NCBI GenBank assembly: GCA_945897545.1
Contig: CAMDGJ010000072.1
Coordinates: 1-12,025, forward strand
DNA: 12,025 nt
Source of the DNA: Flavobacterium psychrophilum
GTDB taxonomy: Bacteria; Bacteroidota; Bacteroidia; Flavobacteriales; Flavobacteriaceae
Direction: 5' to 3'
Positions 7,251 to 12,025 of the stretch are shown piece by piece (the first letter of the stretch is position 1; every line of letters begins with the position of its first letter). The position numbers were made by a program, and so were the translations under genes. Below the pieces are notes generated by a model. That model was given only the letters and a program-made list of their open reading frames with translations. It made no database searches and had not been told where the DNA came from.

Positions 7251-7269
7251 TGGCGGAGAAAGAGGGATT
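7251..7269 (-). other. tRNA-Ser 3'-end fragment, probable attachment-site scar
   Basis: The minus strand reads AATCCCTCTTTCTCCGCCA. This fits the end of a tRNA: last bases of the T loop (AAT), 3' strand of the T stem (CCCTC), 3' acceptor strand (TTTCTCC), discriminator G and CCA. A G discriminator points to serine. Upstream of it the T-loop start TTCG is replaced by TTGTAC and no tRNA body follows. A transcription terminator lies just downstream. A tRNA 3' end beside a tyrosine recombinase gene is a classic attachment site. The exact core and the partner copy are not in the window. Confidence 0.65.
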
Positions 7270-7304: not shown

Positions 7305-7342
7305 CTTTGCAAAATAATATTCTAGGGTCTCGATTTTGAACC

Positions 7343-7366
7343 TCAAAAAAATCACGCTTTTTTTGA
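7343..7366. terminator. Possible bidirectional terminator hairpin
   Basis: TCAAAAAAA (7343-7351) and TTTTTTTGA (7358-7366) are perfect 9-bp arms around TCACGC. It lies 70 bp after the stop of the 67-aa minus-strand gene. The stem is almost all A-T, so termination strength is uncertain. Confidence 0.35.
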
Positions 7367-7436
7367 CAAAACTTAAAGTACAAATATAAGAAACTATATT
7401 TTAAAACTAGTTCAAATAACAAACAAGTTTAAGCCT

Positions 7437-7640
7437 TTATCCTTTAATATGAGGTTCAATTAATTCATATTTTAAACTAGTGTATTGGCAGAACTCCTCG
7501 ATGCTCACAAGCTCATTTTCGAGCTTCTGGAGGTCAATTCTAATCTTTTGCATCAATCTAATGCTTTGGCGATAACTTTTGCCGGTAATGCGTTGTATGT
7601 CCTTCGGGTAGATACATACTCTCTTTAATTCTGTTTTCAT
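7437..7640 (-). CDS. Small conserved Bacteroidota protein, DNA-binding-like, function unknown
   Basis: The 67-aa basic product starts at the ATG at 7640. It has a helix-turn-helix-like N-terminal half (YPKDIQRITGKSYRQSIRLMQKIR, about 11-34), where a CIYPKDIQRITGKSY segment precedes a basic helix. The C-terminal half, VSIEEFCQYTSLKYELIEPHI, resembles the second helix pair of excisionase-like proteins. I recognise the pattern as a common small Bacteroidota hypothetical but know no tested function. It lies between the attachment-like site and the divergent plus-strand cassette, a position that would suit an excisionase or directionality factor. That role is inference from size, charge and place. 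Confidence 0.65.
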   Translation of the reverse strand: MKTELKRVCIYPKDIQRITGKSYRQSIRLMQKIRIDLQKLENELVSIEEFCQYTSLKYELIEPHIKG

Positions 7641-7949: not shown

Positions 7950-8708
7950 ATGGCTAGACAGAAAGGCATAATTAAACTAAAAGGTACTATCGGAGATATT
8001 ACTTTTTACAAAACCCAAGATGGACACTTGGCTCGTGAAAAAGGTGGCGTTGATGCAAGCAGAATCAAGAATGATCCTGCGTTTCAAAGAACACGTGAGA
8101 ATGGTTCTGAATTTGGTAGAGCTGGAAAAGCCGGAAAGGTTTTGAGACTTGCTTTGAGAGCGTTATTGATTAATTCTGCTGACAGCAAAATGGTTAGTAG
8201 ACTAACGCAACAAATGGTGAAAGTTATCCAAGCGGATATGGTAAGCGAACGTGGTTTGCGAAACGTAATTGATGGAGAAGCAGAATTGCTTATTGGTTTT
8301 GAATTTAACATCCGTGGTAAATTAGGAACTAGTTTGTTTGCACCTTATGTTGGAACAATTGACAGAGCTGCTGGAGAAATCACAGTTGATTTGGCACCAT
8401 TTGTTCCTGCAAATATGATTGCTGCACCAGGTGGAACAACGCATTTTAAAATTACCTCAGCTGGTGCTGAAGTAGATTTTGAAGCGGAAACATTTGTAGA
8501 AACGCATTCAGAAACTGCAATTTTGCCATGGAATTCGGCACCGACGGTGGCGATAACTCATACCAATGCGGTTACAGCTGCAAGTACAAAACCATTGTTT
8601 TTGGCGTTAGGTATTGAGTTTTTCCAAGAGGTAAATGGGCAAATGTATCCATTGAAAAATGGTGCTTTCAACCCGTTATCGGTTGTAAAAGTAGATAGCG
8701 GAGTGTAA
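7950..8708 (+). CDS. Conserved Bacteroidota hypothetical protein (first gene of a four-gene cassette)
   Basis: The 252-aa product starts MARQKGIIKLKGTIGDITFY. It has a basic N-terminus with a beta-hairpin-like stretch (GTIGDITFYKTQDGHLAREKGG, about 12-33) and a helical segment rich in R/K (about 45-110, AGKAGKVLRLALRALL and RLTQQMVKVIQ). A beta-rich C-terminal half follows (115-252), ending LFLALGIEFFQEVNGQMYPL. There is no signal peptide, membrane segment or catalytic motif I recognise. I recall near-identical N-termini in many flavobacterial hypothetical proteins, commonly beside a DUF5675 gene. The shape would suit a phage-type structural protein or a nucleic-acid-binding scaffold, but that is a guess. 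Its TAA overlaps the next ATG by one base, so the two are translationally coupled. Confidence 0.85.
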   Translation: MARQKGIIKLKGTIGDITFYKTQDGHLAREKGGVDASRIKNDPAFQRTRENGSEFGRAGKAGKVLRLALRALLINSADSKMVSRLTQQMVKVIQADMVSERGLRNVIDGEAELLIGFEFNIRGKLGTSLFAPYVGTIDRAAGEITVDLAPFVPANMIAAPGGTTHFKITSAGAEVDFEAETFVETHSETAILPWNSAPTVAITHTNAVTAASTKPLFLALGIEFFQEVNGQMYPLKNGAFNPLSVVKVDSGV

Positions 8709-9103
8709 TGGTTCTTGAATTGACCAGAACTTATTTCCCTAACGGAACTAACGGAAAACTCGAATGTAAAGGAAAATCCATTTGTAATACTATTGAGTTA
8801 CCATGGAGAGAAAACGAAACAAGAGTTTCTTGTATTCCGGAAGGGAAATATTTTATTAAAAAACGATACAGTCAAAAATTTCAATGGCATTTGGAGGTTT
8901 TGGATGTGAAAAATAGAAGTTTGATTCTGTTTCATCCAGCCAATAATGCTTTGCAAGAATTGAACGGTTGTATTGCTCCAGTAACAAAACTTTCTGGACC
9001 AGGATTAGGGTTGATGTCCCGAAAATCTTTTATAAGTTTAAAATCCATGGTTTATAAAGCTTTAGACAACAAAGAAAGTGTTGAATTGATTGTGAAATCT
9101 TAA
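8708..9103 (+). CDS. DUF5675 family protein
   Basis: The 131-aa product fits the DUF5675 pattern throughout: an opening beta-strand with LTRTYFPNGTNGKLECKGKSIC, an acidic strand NTIELPW, and CIPEGKYFIKKRYSQKF. Next come WHLEVLDVKNRSLILFHPANNALQELNGCIAP and a C-terminal S-x-K-S-F-x-x-L segment. In the family, the I-P-x-G-x-Y turn, the conserved His (here H936-type, LILFHPAN) and the Gly-Cys-Ile strand are the most constant points. The function is unproven; it occurs in phage and phage-like loci, so a role in cell-wall or lysis steps has been considered. The start ATG overlaps the stop of the upstream gene (TAATG), and the next gene begins 12 nt later. No signal peptide is visible. Confidence 0.8.
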   Translation: MVLELTRTYFPNGTNGKLECKGKSICNTIELPWRENETRVSCIPEGKYFIKKRYSQKFQWHLEVLDVKNRSLILFHPANNALQELNGCIAPVTKLSGPGLGLMSRKSFISLKSMVYKALDNKESVELIVKS

Positions 9104-9115
9104 ATAGGTGTTTTT

Positions 9116-9367
9116 ATGAATATAGTTGAAAGAGCAAAAGCTCCAACTCCGAAGTTTTTTAAGATTTTGAGAAGTATTGGATTGGTATTATTGGGTATTA
9201 GTGGTTCAATAGTAGCCGCTCCTGTTCTGCTACCTGCAGCAGTAGTTACTGTAGCAGGATATGTAGCCGTTGCAGGTGGTGTAATTTCGGCAATTAGCCA
9301 AATAACAGTTGATGATAAAGCAAAGAAAGAAATTGAAAACCTCAACAAAGCACGTGATGGAAACTAA
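9116..9367 (+). CDS. Small membrane protein with a two-helix hairpin
   Basis: The 83-aa product has a short basic N-terminus (MNIVERAKAPTPKFFKILR). Two hydrophobic segments follow, about 20-40 (IGLVLLGISGSIVAAPVLLPA) and 42-62 (VVTVAGYVAVAGGVISAISQI), joined by a proline turn. The tail is charged (VDDKAKKEIENLNKARDGN). It is predicted to be an inner-membrane hairpin with both ends in the cytoplasm. Size and topology resemble a holin, but small Gly/Ala-rich hairpins occur in many systems. An AGGTG stretch lies 7 nt before the ATG. The 3' end overlaps the next gene by 11 bp, so the two are probably made together. Confidence 0.75.
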   Translation: MNIVERAKAPTPKFFKILRSIGLVLLGISGSIVAAPVLLPAAVVTVAGYVAVAGGVISAISQITVDDKAKKEIENLNKARDGN

Positions 9368-9533
9368 TATTTCTTTAAAAGCTGGCACTGCATCAGGAAC
9401 CGTATTGAGTATTTTACCCAATATTCTTTCTGAAGATGTTGTAAAAACAATTATCTTAGCAGCGTTGGGAGCTTCTGTTAGTTTTACAGTTTCGCTCTTG
9501 TTAAAATGCTTGACAAAATCTAAAAATAAATAG
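9357..9533 (+). CDS. Small single-span membrane protein, holin-like
   Basis: I choose the ATG at 9357 (58 aa), which overlaps the end of the upstream gene by 11 bp. A frame extension back to 9309 would lie entirely within that gene and adds a charged, unconvincing leader. The product is METNISLKAGTASGTVLSIL, then a helix TIILAALGASVSFTVSLLLKCL (about 32-53) and a basic tail KSKNK. The amphipathic N-terminus, one membrane span and positive C-terminus are typical of small holins or toxin-like peptides. No family is recognised. It is the last gene of the cassette; the intrinsic terminator follows 62 bp later. Confidence 0.65.
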   Translation: METNISLKAGTASGTVLSILPNILSEDVVKTIILAALGASVSFTVSLLLKCLTKSKNK

Positions 9534-9554
9534 TACTGAAAAAAGTACAGCATA

Positions 9555-9588
9555 AATCCAGTTTTCGTGTGGTAACCTTTACTGGATT
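9555..9588 (+). repeat. Inverted repeat before the cassette terminator
   Basis: AATCCAGT (9555-9562) and ACTGGATT (9581-9588) are perfect 8-bp arms. The 18-nt loop contains the palindrome GGTAACC. It stands just ahead of the terminator and may be a transcript 3'-end hairpin. Confidence 0.45.
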
Positions 9589-9595
9589 AACTAAG

Positions 9596-9623
9596 AAGCC
9601 TAGTCGTAGACCAGGCTTTTTTT
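9596..9623 (+). terminator. Intrinsic terminator of the four-gene cassette
   Basis: AAGCCT-A-GTC (9596-9605) pairs with GAC-C-AGGCTT (9609-9618) around loop GTA, with one A-C mismatch, and runs into seven T (9617-9623). It ends exactly where the convergent minus-strand gene stops. Confidence 0.85.
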
Positions 9624-10045
9624 CATTTATTACAATAGCGGTATAAAATTACTCTTCGCATATCGTTTATGAGGTTGATATTCTCGTGAAACTGCTTTTC
9701 TTTTTGTTCCAAAAGTTTGAGAGTTGCAACATTTTTTTTGTGCTCCTCGTGTTCTGCCATCATTAGACTGGCTTTTGGGATGAATTCATTTTTGAAATCT
9801 GGAAGACGCAAAAACGGAATTACTGAACCTACTAAAAACGGATGCCAGAATTTTGTTTGCCATAAACTATAAGCAATAAAAAAAACACTTTCGCAGTCCT
9901 CCTCGTTTTGAAAAATGATTACAAAACTGTTCGTAAATGGCTCTTTTTGGGGCTTTCCGCTATTCATTCCCTTGTTAAGTATAAACAAATGGGGTTTTGT
10001 GTAAATCGTTCCTACTCTGTGGGTTTTGATGATGAAATTTAGCAT
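9623..10045 (-). CDS. Conserved Bacteroidota protein, probably DUF6943 family
   Basis: The 140-aa product starts at the ATG at 10045 and ends at a TGA that overlaps the cassette terminator's T-run, so the two transcription units converge. It has no signal peptide or membrane segment. Recognisable conserved points are IKTHRVGTIYTKPHLFILNKG (start), NSGKP (about 28-32) and the aromatic block FFIAYSLWQTKFWHPFLVGSVIPFLRLPDF (about 55-84). A charged helix follows (MMAEHEEHKKNVATLKLLEQKEKQFHENINLINDMRRVILYRY). I recall this as a widespread flavobacterial family without a known function, labelled DUF6943; the number is from memory. The tryptophan-rich centre and long helix suggest a binding protein rather than an enzyme. 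Its 5' side faces the structured non-coding region. Confidence 0.75.
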   Translation of the reverse strand: MLNFIIKTHRVGTIYTKPHLFILNKGMNSGKPQKEPFTNSFVIIFQNEEDCESVFFIAYSLWQTKFWHPFLVGSVIPFLRLPDFKNEFIPKASLMMAEHEEHKKNVATLKLLEQKEKQFHENINLINDMRRVILYRYCNK

Positions 10046-10186
10046 AACATTTGGCTTTAAAAATGGGTTAGATTTTCAATTTCCTGCAGATTTTCTCTTG
10101 AAATGCAGGTGTGCCTCGCGAAGCTCGACCTATAAAATTTTTCAAAAGAAAAAAAAGAAAAAAAGAAAGCCGTCTGTTCAAGTGGA
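10046..10186. other. Leader region between the DUF6943 gene and the structured RNA candidate
   Basis: It contains a CTGCA (10084-10088) / TGCAG hairpin across about 15 nt and a purine-only run of about 26 bases (near 10145-10170). I find no convincing promoter in either direction: a TTTG at about 10054 is followed too closely by TAGATTTT. It may hold the minus-strand promoter of the DUF6943 gene and the plus-strand promoter of the RNA candidate. Confidence 0.3.
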
Positions 10187-10285
10187 AGGTTTCAAAAAAG
10201 CAGGTTTTTTTGAAAAAATACTACCCGGATGGGTGGAGATTTTTTCAAAAACCCGTAGGGCTTGAACTTGCTTTTTTGTAAACCT
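10187..10285 (+). repeat. Stem-loop 1: nested three-part hairpin
   Basis: The outer arms 10187-10202 and 10269-10285 pair over 16 bp with one bulge (T10279). The inner arms TTTTTGAAAAAAT (10207-10219) and 10239-10251 are perfect over 13 bp. The core CTACCC/GGGTGG (10221-10226, 10231-10236) closes a GGAT tetraloop and has one G-U pair. A small CCC-GTA-GGG hairpin (10252-10260) lies on the 3' side. Confidence 0.65.
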
Positions 10286-10406
10286 GGAACTTACCTTTGC
10301 TCTCTTTTTTTTTATTTTTTATTTTGATTTCAAATTCTAAATATCATCGTATAATCGGAATTTGTTTGAAGGATTGGGAGTTGATTTGGAAGATTTTCGT
10401 CTTTGG

Positions 10407-10593
10407 AAGTGTATCAATTTTTTGTAGATGGATGACTGAGTGTGATGAAAAAGAAAATGTGCTTTATCCATCTGAAAAATTGATACTCTTCCTTCTACTA
10501 TTTGATTTTTGAGGATGCTTAAATAGTGTTCAGAAATCGGATTTTAGTATTCAGTCGGAAAGGTGAACTGATAACGGTAAGCATCTTCAAAAA
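10407..10593 (+). repeat. Structured repeat unit 1 (stem A plus stem B)
   Basis: Stem A: 10407-10422 pairs with 10475-10490 (15 of 16), with an inner AGATGGAT/ATCCATCT helix (10426-10433, 10466-10473). Stem B: 10506-10521 pairs with 10578-10593 (15 Watson-Crick pairs, one G-U). The stem B loop has GTGTTCAG at 10526-10533 and GTATTCAG at 10547-10554, 21 nt apart. It is homologous to the unit at 10637-10923. Confidence 0.7.
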
Positions 10594-10636
10594 ACAATGC
10601 AAATACTTTCCTAGTGCGACGGCAGAAGCTCAGAGC

Positions 10637-10923
10637 AAGGGTGTCATTTTTTTATTTGTTTATTGGGATTTTCTGATTGCTTTTATTAATAGCTGATGCC
10701 ACAGAATGAGTTGACAGTCGCAGTCGCAGTTTGCAGTAGAAATATGTTTAGTAACGGTATGGCATCGGCTATTGTGAAAGCAATTACCTCTGTGCGTTGT
10801 GGCAAATAAAAAATGATACTCTTGCTGGCGCTTTTGGTTTTGTGGGTGCCTGATTGGTGTTCAGAGGGAAGAAGATAGTGTTCAGAAAAAAGTTGTTATG
10901 AAAATGAAAAGGCACTTACAAAA
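10637..10923 (+). repeat. Structured repeat unit 2 (stem A, long inner stem, stem B)
   Basis: Stem A: 10637-10652 pairs with 10808-10823 (14 Watson-Crick, two G-U). Inside it 10675-10701 pairs with 10760-10785 over 26 bp, with four G-U pairs and one bulged T; its loop holds the CAGTCG-CAGTCG-CAGT repeat (10715-10730). Stem B: 10838-10851 pairs with 10910-10923, with two G-U pairs. Its loop has GTGTTCAG at 10857-10864 and 10878-10885, again 21 nt apart. The motif offset from unit 1 is 331 bp. Confidence 0.7.
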
Positions 10924-11038
10924 GCAATGAAAACACTACCGATTTAACCAGTTAGTTGCTAAAAACAATTACCGTAAACGTTCTTGAAAGTAAGTATGAG
11001 CGTAAAATTTCCTATGAAATACAAGACGTTGTTTAAGA

Positions 11039-11114
11039 CAGTGGCGAAGGGTGGTGTTTTGAGTAGCCGGCTGGTGCGATGGAAGCTGCTCAAAAAGTTG
11101 CCCTAGAGCCACTG
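11039..11114 (+). repeat. Stem-loop with three stacked helices
   Basis: CAGTGGC (11039-11045) pairs with GCCACTG (11108-11114), AGGG (11048-11051) with CCCT (11101-11104), and TTTTGAGTAGC (11057-11067) with 11085-11095 with one G-U pair. Between the last two is a symmetric 5 x 5 internal loop. The hairpin loop is 17 nt. Confidence 0.65.
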
Positions 11115-11141
11115 GCAAGCGCGTCGGGTGTGGCGGCATTT

Positions 11142-11224
11142 TTACATAATGTTATTATAGTGCATCCGAGATTTTCATTAGAAGCAGGGTGTTTCTTTAT
11201 GCACTATAATGCCACATTATGTAA
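11142..11224. repeat. Long near-perfect inverted repeat
   Basis: TTACATAATGT (11142-11152) pairs perfectly with 11214-11224, and ATTATAGTGCAT (11154-11165) pairs perfectly with 11199-11210. Only one base on the left and three on the right interrupt the 23-bp stem. The loop is 33 nt. A competing pairing exists between GTGGC at about 11129-11133 and GCCAC at 11211-11215, which would break the outer helix. Confidence 0.75.
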
Positions 11225-11250
11225 CTAAGCTTGGGGAAAAAAATTTGCTC

Positions 11251-11360
11251 ACGGCGTATTTATTTGTTTTTCAAAGGAGTTCGCCGTTGCCGGGGGCAGG
11301 TCTGGCGCAAGTTGCAAAGCGTACGTGTTTTTTCTAAAAACTGTGCCAGTAATTTTTTTT
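11251..11360 (+). terminator. Hairpins and T-run ending the RNA candidate
   Basis: ACGGCG (11251-11256) pairs with CGCCGT (11282-11287), TGCC-GGG-GGCA is a tight hairpin at 11288-11298, and CTGGCGCA (11302-11309) pairs with TGTGCCAG (11342-11349) with one G-U. Three bases later comes a run of eight T (11353-11360). The last stem plus T-run looks like an intrinsic terminator for plus-strand transcription, although its loop is long (32 nt, with an inner GTTTTT/AAAAAC hairpin). Confidence 0.45.
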
Positions 11361-11439
11361 GGAGCGTTGGCAAAGGAGTGGCAACTGAAATGTAAAACTT
11401 TGTTATTTTAGTACTACTTTATAATATTTTTGATACTAA

Positions 11440-12025
11440 TTATTCATATTGACCTAAGAACATATTGTCCGTTTTTAAATAGAATAATGGAATTATATAT
11501 TTCTTTTGCTCATTAAATTGGAACTTTTTAAAATCGGTTATATTGGTCATTGTTTCAATAGGTGGAGGAGAATCAACTGTCAGAAAATATCCAAAAGGAT
11601 TAAATGTTATTTCAGAATGAGTATTCGTTGAACCATTAAAATTATTCCATTGTATCCCATACAATCGTTTATGTATTGAAATCGTATTATATAAATAAAC
11701 TTGATACTTATCAGGTAATGAATTGTTATCCTTTTCTAAAATGAAGTTTACTAATTCTTTATCATTTTTGAGATAATTTGAATGGTCAATAGCTAAAAAC
11801 ATAGTTAGAATTTGCTTCAAAACATTCAAAGGTTTAAAATTAAATTCGATAAGATTAGCTCTGTTTATCTTTTCAACATTATTAAAGTGATTGTATGCTT
11901 GACCTACAAATTCTGAGAAATCTCTAGCATACCAAGTTCCTGTATTATTGTTACAACTTTTACAAAAACAATAGGAACCAGAGCCATTATTACTTCTTAT
12001 TGATTTGCCATAAACATAACTTTTT
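11440..12025 (-). CDS. Unrecognised protein with a CxCxxC zinc-ribbon/HNH-like knuckle, C-terminal part (runs off the right edge)
   Basis: The frame ending at the TAA at 11440-11442 stays open to the window edge, giving at least 194 residues. A start inside (TTG at 11829) is therefore not needed. Near the visible N-terminus is SYCFCKSCNNNTGTWYARDFSEFV (DNA about 11975-11905): a Cys-x-Cys-x-x-Cys cluster followed by NNNTG and a WYARDF helix start. The Cys-x2-Cys-Asn-Asn-x-Thr-Gly pattern is seen in HNH-like or zinc-ribbon proteins, where the other metal ligands lie further upstream, outside this window. The rest (about 60-194) is mixed alpha/beta, Asn-rich, ending KYIIPLFYLKTDNMFLGQYE, with no motif I know. 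It converges on the RNA candidate. Its A+T-rich composition suggests accessory DNA. Function unknown. Confidence 0.6.
   Translation of the reverse strand, partial: KSYVYGKSIRSNNGSGSYCFCKSCNNNTGTWYARDFSEFVGQAYNHFNNVEKINRANLIEFNFKPLNVLKQILTMFLAIDHSNYLKNDKELVNFILEKDNNSLPDKYQVYLYNTISIHKRLYGIQWNNFNGSTNTHSEITFNPFGYFLTVDSPPPIETMTNITDFKKFQFNEQKKYIIPLFYLKTDNMFLGQYE

Follow-up and report, generated by a model that had tools for sequence, protein, structure and literature searches.

What has kept the fold of two tandem units, each consisting of a stem A followed by a stem B, in a mobile region of a Flavobacterium psychrophilum genome? The units lie in contig CAMDGJ010000072.1, in a 12,025-nucleotide stretch that was analyzed as a whole and is called the window here. 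A sequence-only reading took them to be a functional RNA or folded single-stranded DNA (ssDNA). That reading was incomplete: the units are an accessory part of variable copy number, and an adjacent hairpin with a promoter, D1, is more widely conserved. We put at about 60% the probability that D1 represents a family of ssDNA promoters of Bacteroidota and that the units are accessory plus-strand structure, either RNA or folded ssDNA. The features discussed are as follows.

10142-11400, plus strand: whole element, ~1.25 kb, in islands of Flavobacteriaceae; the tandem units are its middle
10142-10327, plus strand: D1, long hairpin with an A-rich 5' arm from 10142 and a U-rich 3' arm to 10327; proposed ssDNA promoter
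10268-10270, plus strand: TTG, -33-like box in the D1 3' arm, 21 nt ahead of the -7 box
10292-10299, plus strand: TACCTTTG, Bacteroidota -7 box (TAnnTTTG) in the D1 3' arm
10405-10492, plus strand: unit 1 stem A, inverted repeat (arms 10405-10422 and 10475-10492); 12 of 14 inner consensus pairs covary
10507-10592, plus strand: unit 1 stem B, examined by an arm-shuffle test
10631-10828, plus strand: unit 2 stem A and two inner helices (25, 11, and 9 pairs; 98, 96, and 93% paired; 7, 3, and 3 covarying pairs)
10838-10923, plus strand: unit 2 stem B, examined by the arm-shuffle test; 12 of 23 pairs covary
11039-11114, plus strand: D3 hairpin; 16 of 27 pairs covary
11135-11231, plus strand: D4 hairpin; 4 of 24 pairs covary; present in some loci without units (L084, L085, L087, L088, L089)
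11302-11360, plus strand: D5 hairpin, CTGGCGCA/TGTGCCAG and then a T run; terminator-like and conserved, as read from the sequence
11357-11400, plus strand: block conserved among relatives, right end of the element
9623-10045, minus strand: DUF6943 gene (PF22105; Pfam E 5e-57), candidate target of the D1 promoter
7950-9533, plus strand: island genes for MARQ (252 aa, no Pfam match), DUF5675, and two small hydrophobic proteins
7253-7269, minus strand: 17-nt core, island boundary at which inter-island homology stops

The tandem units and the strand that folds

Reading the bases confirmed the pairs that had been listed as compensatory between the units. In unit 1 these are A10512-T10587, A10515-T10584, T10519-A10580, G10514-C10585, and A10417-T10480, and their counterparts in unit 2 are T10843-A10918, G10846-C10915, C10850-G10911, G10845-T10916, and T10647-A10813. 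A spacing of 331 bp, as initially described, is correct for stem B but not for stem A, whose 3' arm is offset by 333 and whose 5' arm is offset by 230 because stem A of unit 2 holds more inserted sequence. The kinship of the units extends beyond the stems, with 73% identity between 10475-10511 and 10808-10844, and a profile of one unit also picks up the other at several further loci. The strongest 200-nt fold within 8901-12000 is 10401-10600, with a z of -7.5 on the plus strand and -6.9 on the minus strand. Since z is strong on both strands, it cannot by itself tell which strand folds.

Genome contigs were scanned with a profile of 18 aligned DUF6943 proteins, and the best 80 of 120 confirmed loci, mostly from Flavobacteriaceae, were taken. 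The alignment used the 55 of these 80 in which a right-end probe was found within 900-2200 nt, leaving out loci that were cut by contig ends or insertions or had no right-end probe. Together with the window this gave 56 aligned sequences, which are conserved from ~10106 to 11400. For 53 rows of <95% identity, RNAalifold predicted 191 consensus pairs on the plus strand, 74 of them with two-sided changes (counted when seen in at least two sequences each). The consensus energy was -170.6 kcal/mol on the plus strand versus -75.6 kcal/mol on the minus strand, and the plus strand was the better fold in all 53 rows. Pairs common to both strand predictions contained 76 GU versus 21 AC cells; by row, GU exceeded AC in 33, AC exceeded GU in 2, and the two were equal in 18. 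GU is far above AC on the plus strand only, and in D1 the ratio is 186:2. The GU fraction of each domain, which was meant to distinguish RNA from ssDNA, was 8-16% everywhere and did not separate them.

RNAalifold returned no structure for a pooled alignment of the units, and stem B was tested separately because unit 1 aligns poorly. The test started from 112 unit segments, less 2 that were too short and 6 in which the anchor was missing, and measured arm pairing at 14 positions. Pairing was 90.9% in unit 1 (43 distinct sequences) and 89.3% in unit 2 (34 distinct sequences), above the maxima of 84.9 and 83.0%, respectively, in 1000 arm shuffles. The covariation found by RNAalifold, the stem B arm test, and the strand comparison thus bear out, in many homologues, the earlier claim that the fold and not the sequence is kept. 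The choice between functional RNA and folded ssDNA that had been offered also gains support from covarying homologues. No known Rfam family (GOLLD, ROOL, OLE, introns) matched credibly: on the window and eight D1 loci, Rfam covariance models gave chance-level matches only (E 0.06 or weaker), far below the gathering scores. As for the statement that no protein gene explains the fold, there is no credible gene between 10046 and 11400, where the open reading frames are two short ones (10026-10265 and 10297-10512), but a divergent DUF6943 gene is linked to the element.

How constant is this architecture? D1, which adjoins DUF6943, is the steady part, even at 32-43% protein identity, and is present in 113 of 125 loci. 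The number of units ranges from one (L124) to three (L108), and in L085, L087, L088, and L089 domain profiles detected D1 and D4 and not the units or D3. The 12 loci that lack D1 comprise four in which DUF6943 lies at a contig end (L008, L010, L022, L079) and four with other sequence beside it (L043, L068, L106, L121), of which L106 and L121 retain ~40 nt of D1. L115, which has the most distant DUF6943, matches the D1 model only in part (29.6 bits), and L116-L118, also without D1, have weak PF22105 matches in which the DUF6943 of the window finds nothing. At the right end, a terminator scan gave 3 sites (1.5 expected) and none at D5, because the D5 loop is longer than the scan permits; a sigma-70 promoter scan is not suited to Bacteroidota.

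Some smaller features of the window copy may be recorded here. The apical loops of the units (10540-10560 and 10707-10738) appear by eye to be CAGT-type low-complexity sequence, as if spacer DNA were freely accepted there, and a guide-RNA reading was dropped on account of these two loops. The sequence AACGGTA, found in both units (10571 and 10752), is complementary to TTACCGT after unit 2 (10969), which would allow a pseudoknot or kissing contact. A 56-base stretch (11246-11301), present in few aligned relatives, interrupts D5.

The D1 hairpin and its promoter boxes

A covariance alignment of 33 diverse D1 sequences has 30 core pairs, 21 of them with two-sided changes. Its covariation score is 0.378 versus 0.141 in shuffled alignments, and none of 500 shuffles scored as high. 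After duplicates and hits without the anchor motif were dropped, 158 profile hits left 114 distinct D1; most of these are related Flavobacterium copies, which counts against reading D1 as an ssDNA promoter.

Promoters of Bacteroidota follow the spacing rule TTG-N17-23-TAnnTTTG. TAnnTTTG is present within 75 nt of the anchor in 73 of the 114 distinct D1, as compared with 9% of shuffles, and its reverse complement in none. With the looser form TAnnTTTR, a box is found in the 3' arm of 99 of the 114. TTG precedes this box by 17-23 nt in 66 of the 99 (15% in shuffles), and the spacing is exactly 21 in 46. The TAnnTTTR cluster in D1 occurs in 49 of the 56 aligned regions and is the sole cluster on either strand to reach 15 of the 56. 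PMC9723704 describes TAnnTTTG as the -7 box for the housekeeping sigma factor of Flavobacterium.

Is the promoter enclosed by the hairpin? In DNA folds of D1, the pairing of positions +8 to +30 beyond the box with the 5' arm is 0.78, versus 0.51 in shuffles. This pairing exceeds 0.5 in 91 of the 99 D1, and 4 of the 99 have no paired flank. The gain is modest in single sequences (the median number of shuffles that do as well is 2 of 20, and in 25 of 99 it is none), and this counts against the ssDNA promoter. A difference in the pairing of the -7 box weighs in the same direction: in island-type D1 the box is about one-third paired, being mostly open with paired flanks, and in the ICE types it is fully paired, so that the D1 types differ. 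Also against it, an ArdA-linked D1 (L169; model match 51 bits) was without a paired flank in the DNA fold test, and two partial pieces of it, folded separately, were not significant.

In D1 copies beside SSB-DUF932 and PcfK/PcfJ genes (SSB type and Pcf type), the entire promoter lies within a hairpin of ~70 consensus pairs with both boxes in the stem. All 13 of these D1 share the nine bases TACCTTTGC without change. From loop to box, 13 of 27 stem pairs covary in the SSB type (A5) and 10 of 23 in the Pcf type (A6). Beyond the box, 11 of 39 pairs covary in the Pcf type (6 of 27 with DNA parameters); in the SSB type 1 of 37 pairs covary and the stem is nearly invariant.

These features resemble those of Frpo, a single strand that folds into a stem-loop, rebuilds -10 and -35 boxes, and starts transcription of ssb and other leading genes, with SSB and ArdA among the leading-region genes in such systems (PMC9849209, PMC11541004). 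In our model, the tandem units would be part of a strand-specific element on a mobile island with D1 at its core. When the plus strand is single-stranded, D1 would fold into a long hairpin and so rebuild a double-stranded Bacteroidota promoter, with the 3' arm (TTG and TAnnTTTG) as the non-template strand and the 5' arm as the template. RNA polymerase would then exit the hairpin leftward and transcribe DUF6943; in relatives the same leftward transcription would reach DUF6266, SSB-DUF932, PcfK/PcfJ, or JAB-ArdA genes. We infer both transcription from ssDNA and a single-stranded stage of the element, whereas the fold with its covariation and strand, the boxes, the orientation of the gene, and the breadth of occurrence are results of computation. 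A sense TAnnTTTG box was found in the 250 nt before DUF6943 in 0 of 61 cases. The same control gave 7% of 60 for MARQ, 0 of 11 for INT, and 31% of 45 for HTH67, and the result is not counted as support because MARQ and INT also go without a box.

The units, D3, and D4 would be accessory plus-strand structure that accompanies DUF6943 islands. Do they act as RNA or as DNA? It is slightly more likely that they form a ~1.05-kb RNA, which the same boxes would start rightward in double-stranded DNA and which would end at D5, than that they are further ssDNA folds, because the -7 box precedes them and a terminator-like hairpin follows. This is tempered by conservation that continues to 11400, beyond D5. 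In either case the modular A/B units would represent a new large structured nucleic acid.

D1 in other mobile elements

The covariance model of the 33 diverse D1 found D1 in 26 of 395 Bacteroidota genomes, and blastn found it in 83 of 199 genomes of the genus of F. aquatile and in 15 of 199 of its family. PF22105 matched in 17 of the 395 phylum genomes (15 above cut-off) and in none of 14 control genomes. The neighbors of D1 are DUF6266 genes in L069, L094, and L100 (L069 by Pfam) and in L142 (by a profile from those three), SSB-DUF932 genes in L136 by Pfam and in six more that are alike by sequence, and PcfK/PcfJ genes in L137 by Pfam. Some weak hits of the D1 model have other neighbors (L134, L143, L146, L149-L151). 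Among 72,556 plasmid records, D1 was found in 10 with the window element and in 12 with the D1 of B. fragilis, partly the same records. In Bacteroidales, CTnDOT-like elements and plasmids also carry D1, here with PcfK/PcfJ or JAB-ArdA as the adjacent genes. One of these, NZ_OR675140, is of the CTnDOT type and has tet(Q), mobABC, tra genes, and a gene with an RteC domain; its D1 is located behind the tra operon and faces leftward genes in an operon: two small ones, PcfK, and PcfJ. The leftward genes beside D1 in NZ_CP081918 are JAB and ArdA. In NZ_CP041396, four D1 follow one another, with a leftward gene 112-136 nt away from each; on the right of the last D1, gene direction reverses. The occurrence of D1 without units in unrelated contexts counts for the ssDNA promoter.

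The folding of the right flank of D1 was meant to confine the units to DUF6943 islands. In the ICE types this flank mostly has a z near 0; the exceptions are L144, which folds in three windows, and L139, L140, and L148, which fold in the first window. These data bear on an alternative in which 10142-11360, D1 included, functions as a single giant structured RNA, noncoding and comparable to GOLLD, ROOL, or OLE. GOLLD and ROOL are also found on mobile elements. Covariation and the GU bias of the strand are alike in all domains, and the conserved junctions, the terminator-like D5, and the mobile-element setting fit such an RNA. However, no conserved TAnnTTTR box is found on the plus strand between 10046 and D1, a conserved promoter box within D1 would serve no purpose in an RNA, and D1 occurs without the rest in ICE-type elements whose right flanks, L144 excepted, are mostly unfolded. 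The element is large, structured, and covarying like GOLLD, ROOL, and OLE (PMC12286853) but differs in its modular unit number, in the promoter hairpin at its start, and in matching nothing in Rfam. We regard a giant RNA as unlikely.

The orientation of neighboring genes bears on the ssDNA promoter and on two further alternatives. Within 650 nt of D1 on its 5' side, the minus strand carried the longest ORF, which points away from D1, in 107 of 114 cases (plus strand in 5, none in 2). On the 3' side there was no rule, the longest ORF being minus in 48, plus in 38, and absent in 28 of the 114. Because the boxes lie in the 3' arm of the plus-strand hairpin, reading from them would run toward the 5' side, where the ORF points away in those 107. 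If D1 were instead an ordinary double-stranded promoter firing rightward, with the hairpin as a palindrome for a regulator, its boxes would form a normal Bacteroidota promoter, but the inconsistent rightward gene and the 186:2 ratio in D1, which marks one strand, make this highly improbable. A less far-fetched alternative, although still quite unlikely, is that D1 and the units are priming sites of the ssi or sso type for complementary-strand synthesis, with the hairpin RNA as a primer and the left gene incidental. The topology would be the same as that of a promoter, and Frpo has reportedly been assigned both roles, promoter and priming, in the title of Masai and Arai 1997. However, priming would not require a gene to stand on one particular side, and nearly all D1 have such a gene.

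The ssDNA promoter thus remains the preferred reading of D1, and its likeness to Frpo/ssi (F, ColIb-P9) is one of layout. In both, the stem-loop of one strand carries both promoter boxes, adjoins SSB, ArdA, and other establishment genes, and is oriented with the folded strand as template; D1 belongs to a different phylum and has TTG/TAnnTTTG instead of TTGACA/TATAAT. D1 also differs from Frpo in having its own internal core, GGGTGGAGAT...GGGCTTGA, and, in the window, 1 kb more of folded domains behind it. The search in PMC11541004 used five known Frpo/ssi sequences, and its islands were searched with TTGACA/TATAAT; this choice of motif and sequence would be expected to miss D1. The string "Bacteroid" is absent from the main text of that paper, and the literature on ssDNA promoters in the library searched does not mention Bacteroides. 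If D1 works as proposed, expression from incoming ssDNA would extend well beyond enterobacterial plasmids, and the D1 covariance model (R1) would mark early-expressed genes on mobile elements of Bacteroidota, those of the gut included.

Does D1 lie on a transferred strand? Six of seven ICE-type genomes have PF03432 relaxase genes 22-34 kb 5' of D1 on the minus strand; the seventh, G520, has no PF03432 relaxase on the D1 contig. The relaxase is ~29 kb from D1 in NZ_OR675140 and 49-55 kb from it, on the plus strand, in NZ_CP041396. At 22-55 kb from a relaxase gene, D1 is not adjacent to a mapped oriT, a difference from Frpo, and this counts against the ssDNA promoter. D1 would be on the transferred strand only if transfer runs from the relaxase gene toward D1. 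Also against the ssDNA promoter, the relaxases PF03432, PF03389, and PF01076 gave no match in G001, G003, G005, and G008, four of the seven island genomes searched.

The DUF6943 protein and its island

The structure of DUF6943, predicted with confidence (pLDDT 92.8, pTM 0.70), has HsdS-type recognition domains as its closest structural neighbors, with six of nine matches at 3.0-3.4 A. These matches of a model are weak but coherent, and the HsdS target-recognition domain may be the nearest known system for this protein. Because of these neighbors and because ArdA occupies the same slot elsewhere, it is a fair guess, and no more, that DUF6943 is an anti-restriction protein acting by mimicry. Should the proposal for D1 be right, DUF6943 and DUF6266 would be among the families that become testable candidates for establishment or anti-defense functions; no paper on either was found in the library searched. 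A bolder version of the model is that D1 is the first ssDNA promoter of Bacteroidota and part of a strandedness switch, in which ssDNA would drive leftward DUF6943 as an HsdS-mimicking anti-restriction factor, double-stranded DNA would drive a rightward modular 1-kb RNA of tandem A/B units, and the islands would spread as ssDNA without a known relaxase. This combination is speculative, and we consider it rather doubtful as a whole.

Read from left to right in the orientation of the locus, the island consists of a 284-aa protein (no Pfam match), an AAA-like ATPase (a Pfam match below cut-off only), cargo, the element from D5 to D1, DUF6943, two small hydrophobic proteins, DUF5675, MARQ, the small protein HTH67, and then the 17-nt core. 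The order of the MARQ, DUF5675, and hydrophobic-protein genes is the same in most of the best 80 of 120 loci whose flank reaches that far. The core was found with up to two mismatches in 31 of these 80 loci and in the window. Sequences differ beyond the core, and an integrase gene often lies immediately past it, as in the window. The core appears to resemble the 3' end of tRNA-Ser. Across the best 80 of 120 loci, no tRNA-Ser was identified by ARAGORN. Several island copies per genome are usual, with D1 at four places each in G003 and G005.

Searches for an affiliation of the island genes gave little. PHROGs matched the tested island genes with families of unknown function only, NCBIfam gave none, and the literature on Flavobacterium integrative elements and phage satellites in the library searched gave off-topic results only. 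The structure of MARQ has a weak C2/Ig-like beta sandwich at the C-terminus, and no function was assigned from it. A phage origin is without support, as distant blastn against phage records gave no match and none of 182 pattern matches to DUF6943 in IMG/VR was confirmed.

Finally, some island copies are rearranged. The cargo of L026 includes a 93-aa frame (7339-7620) whose first residues, MSRILGLDLGTNSIGW, presumably resemble the beginning of a RuvC domain of the Cas9/IscB type. In L003 (2482-2649), L005 (551-648), and L026 (8402-8472), the right end (D4/D5) recurs in additional direct copies further to the right, so that cargo is flanked by D5 repeats. Readings as attC-like sites and as an oriT were also considered, with these repeated D5 ends as the one observation that bears on them. 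In other loci the element is split at differing points by insertions that carry gene content between its halves (L021 7404-8869, L060 7797-9390, L055 5671-9700, L038 2499-5340), with a 10-base overlap of the halves in L021 that resembles a target-site duplication.
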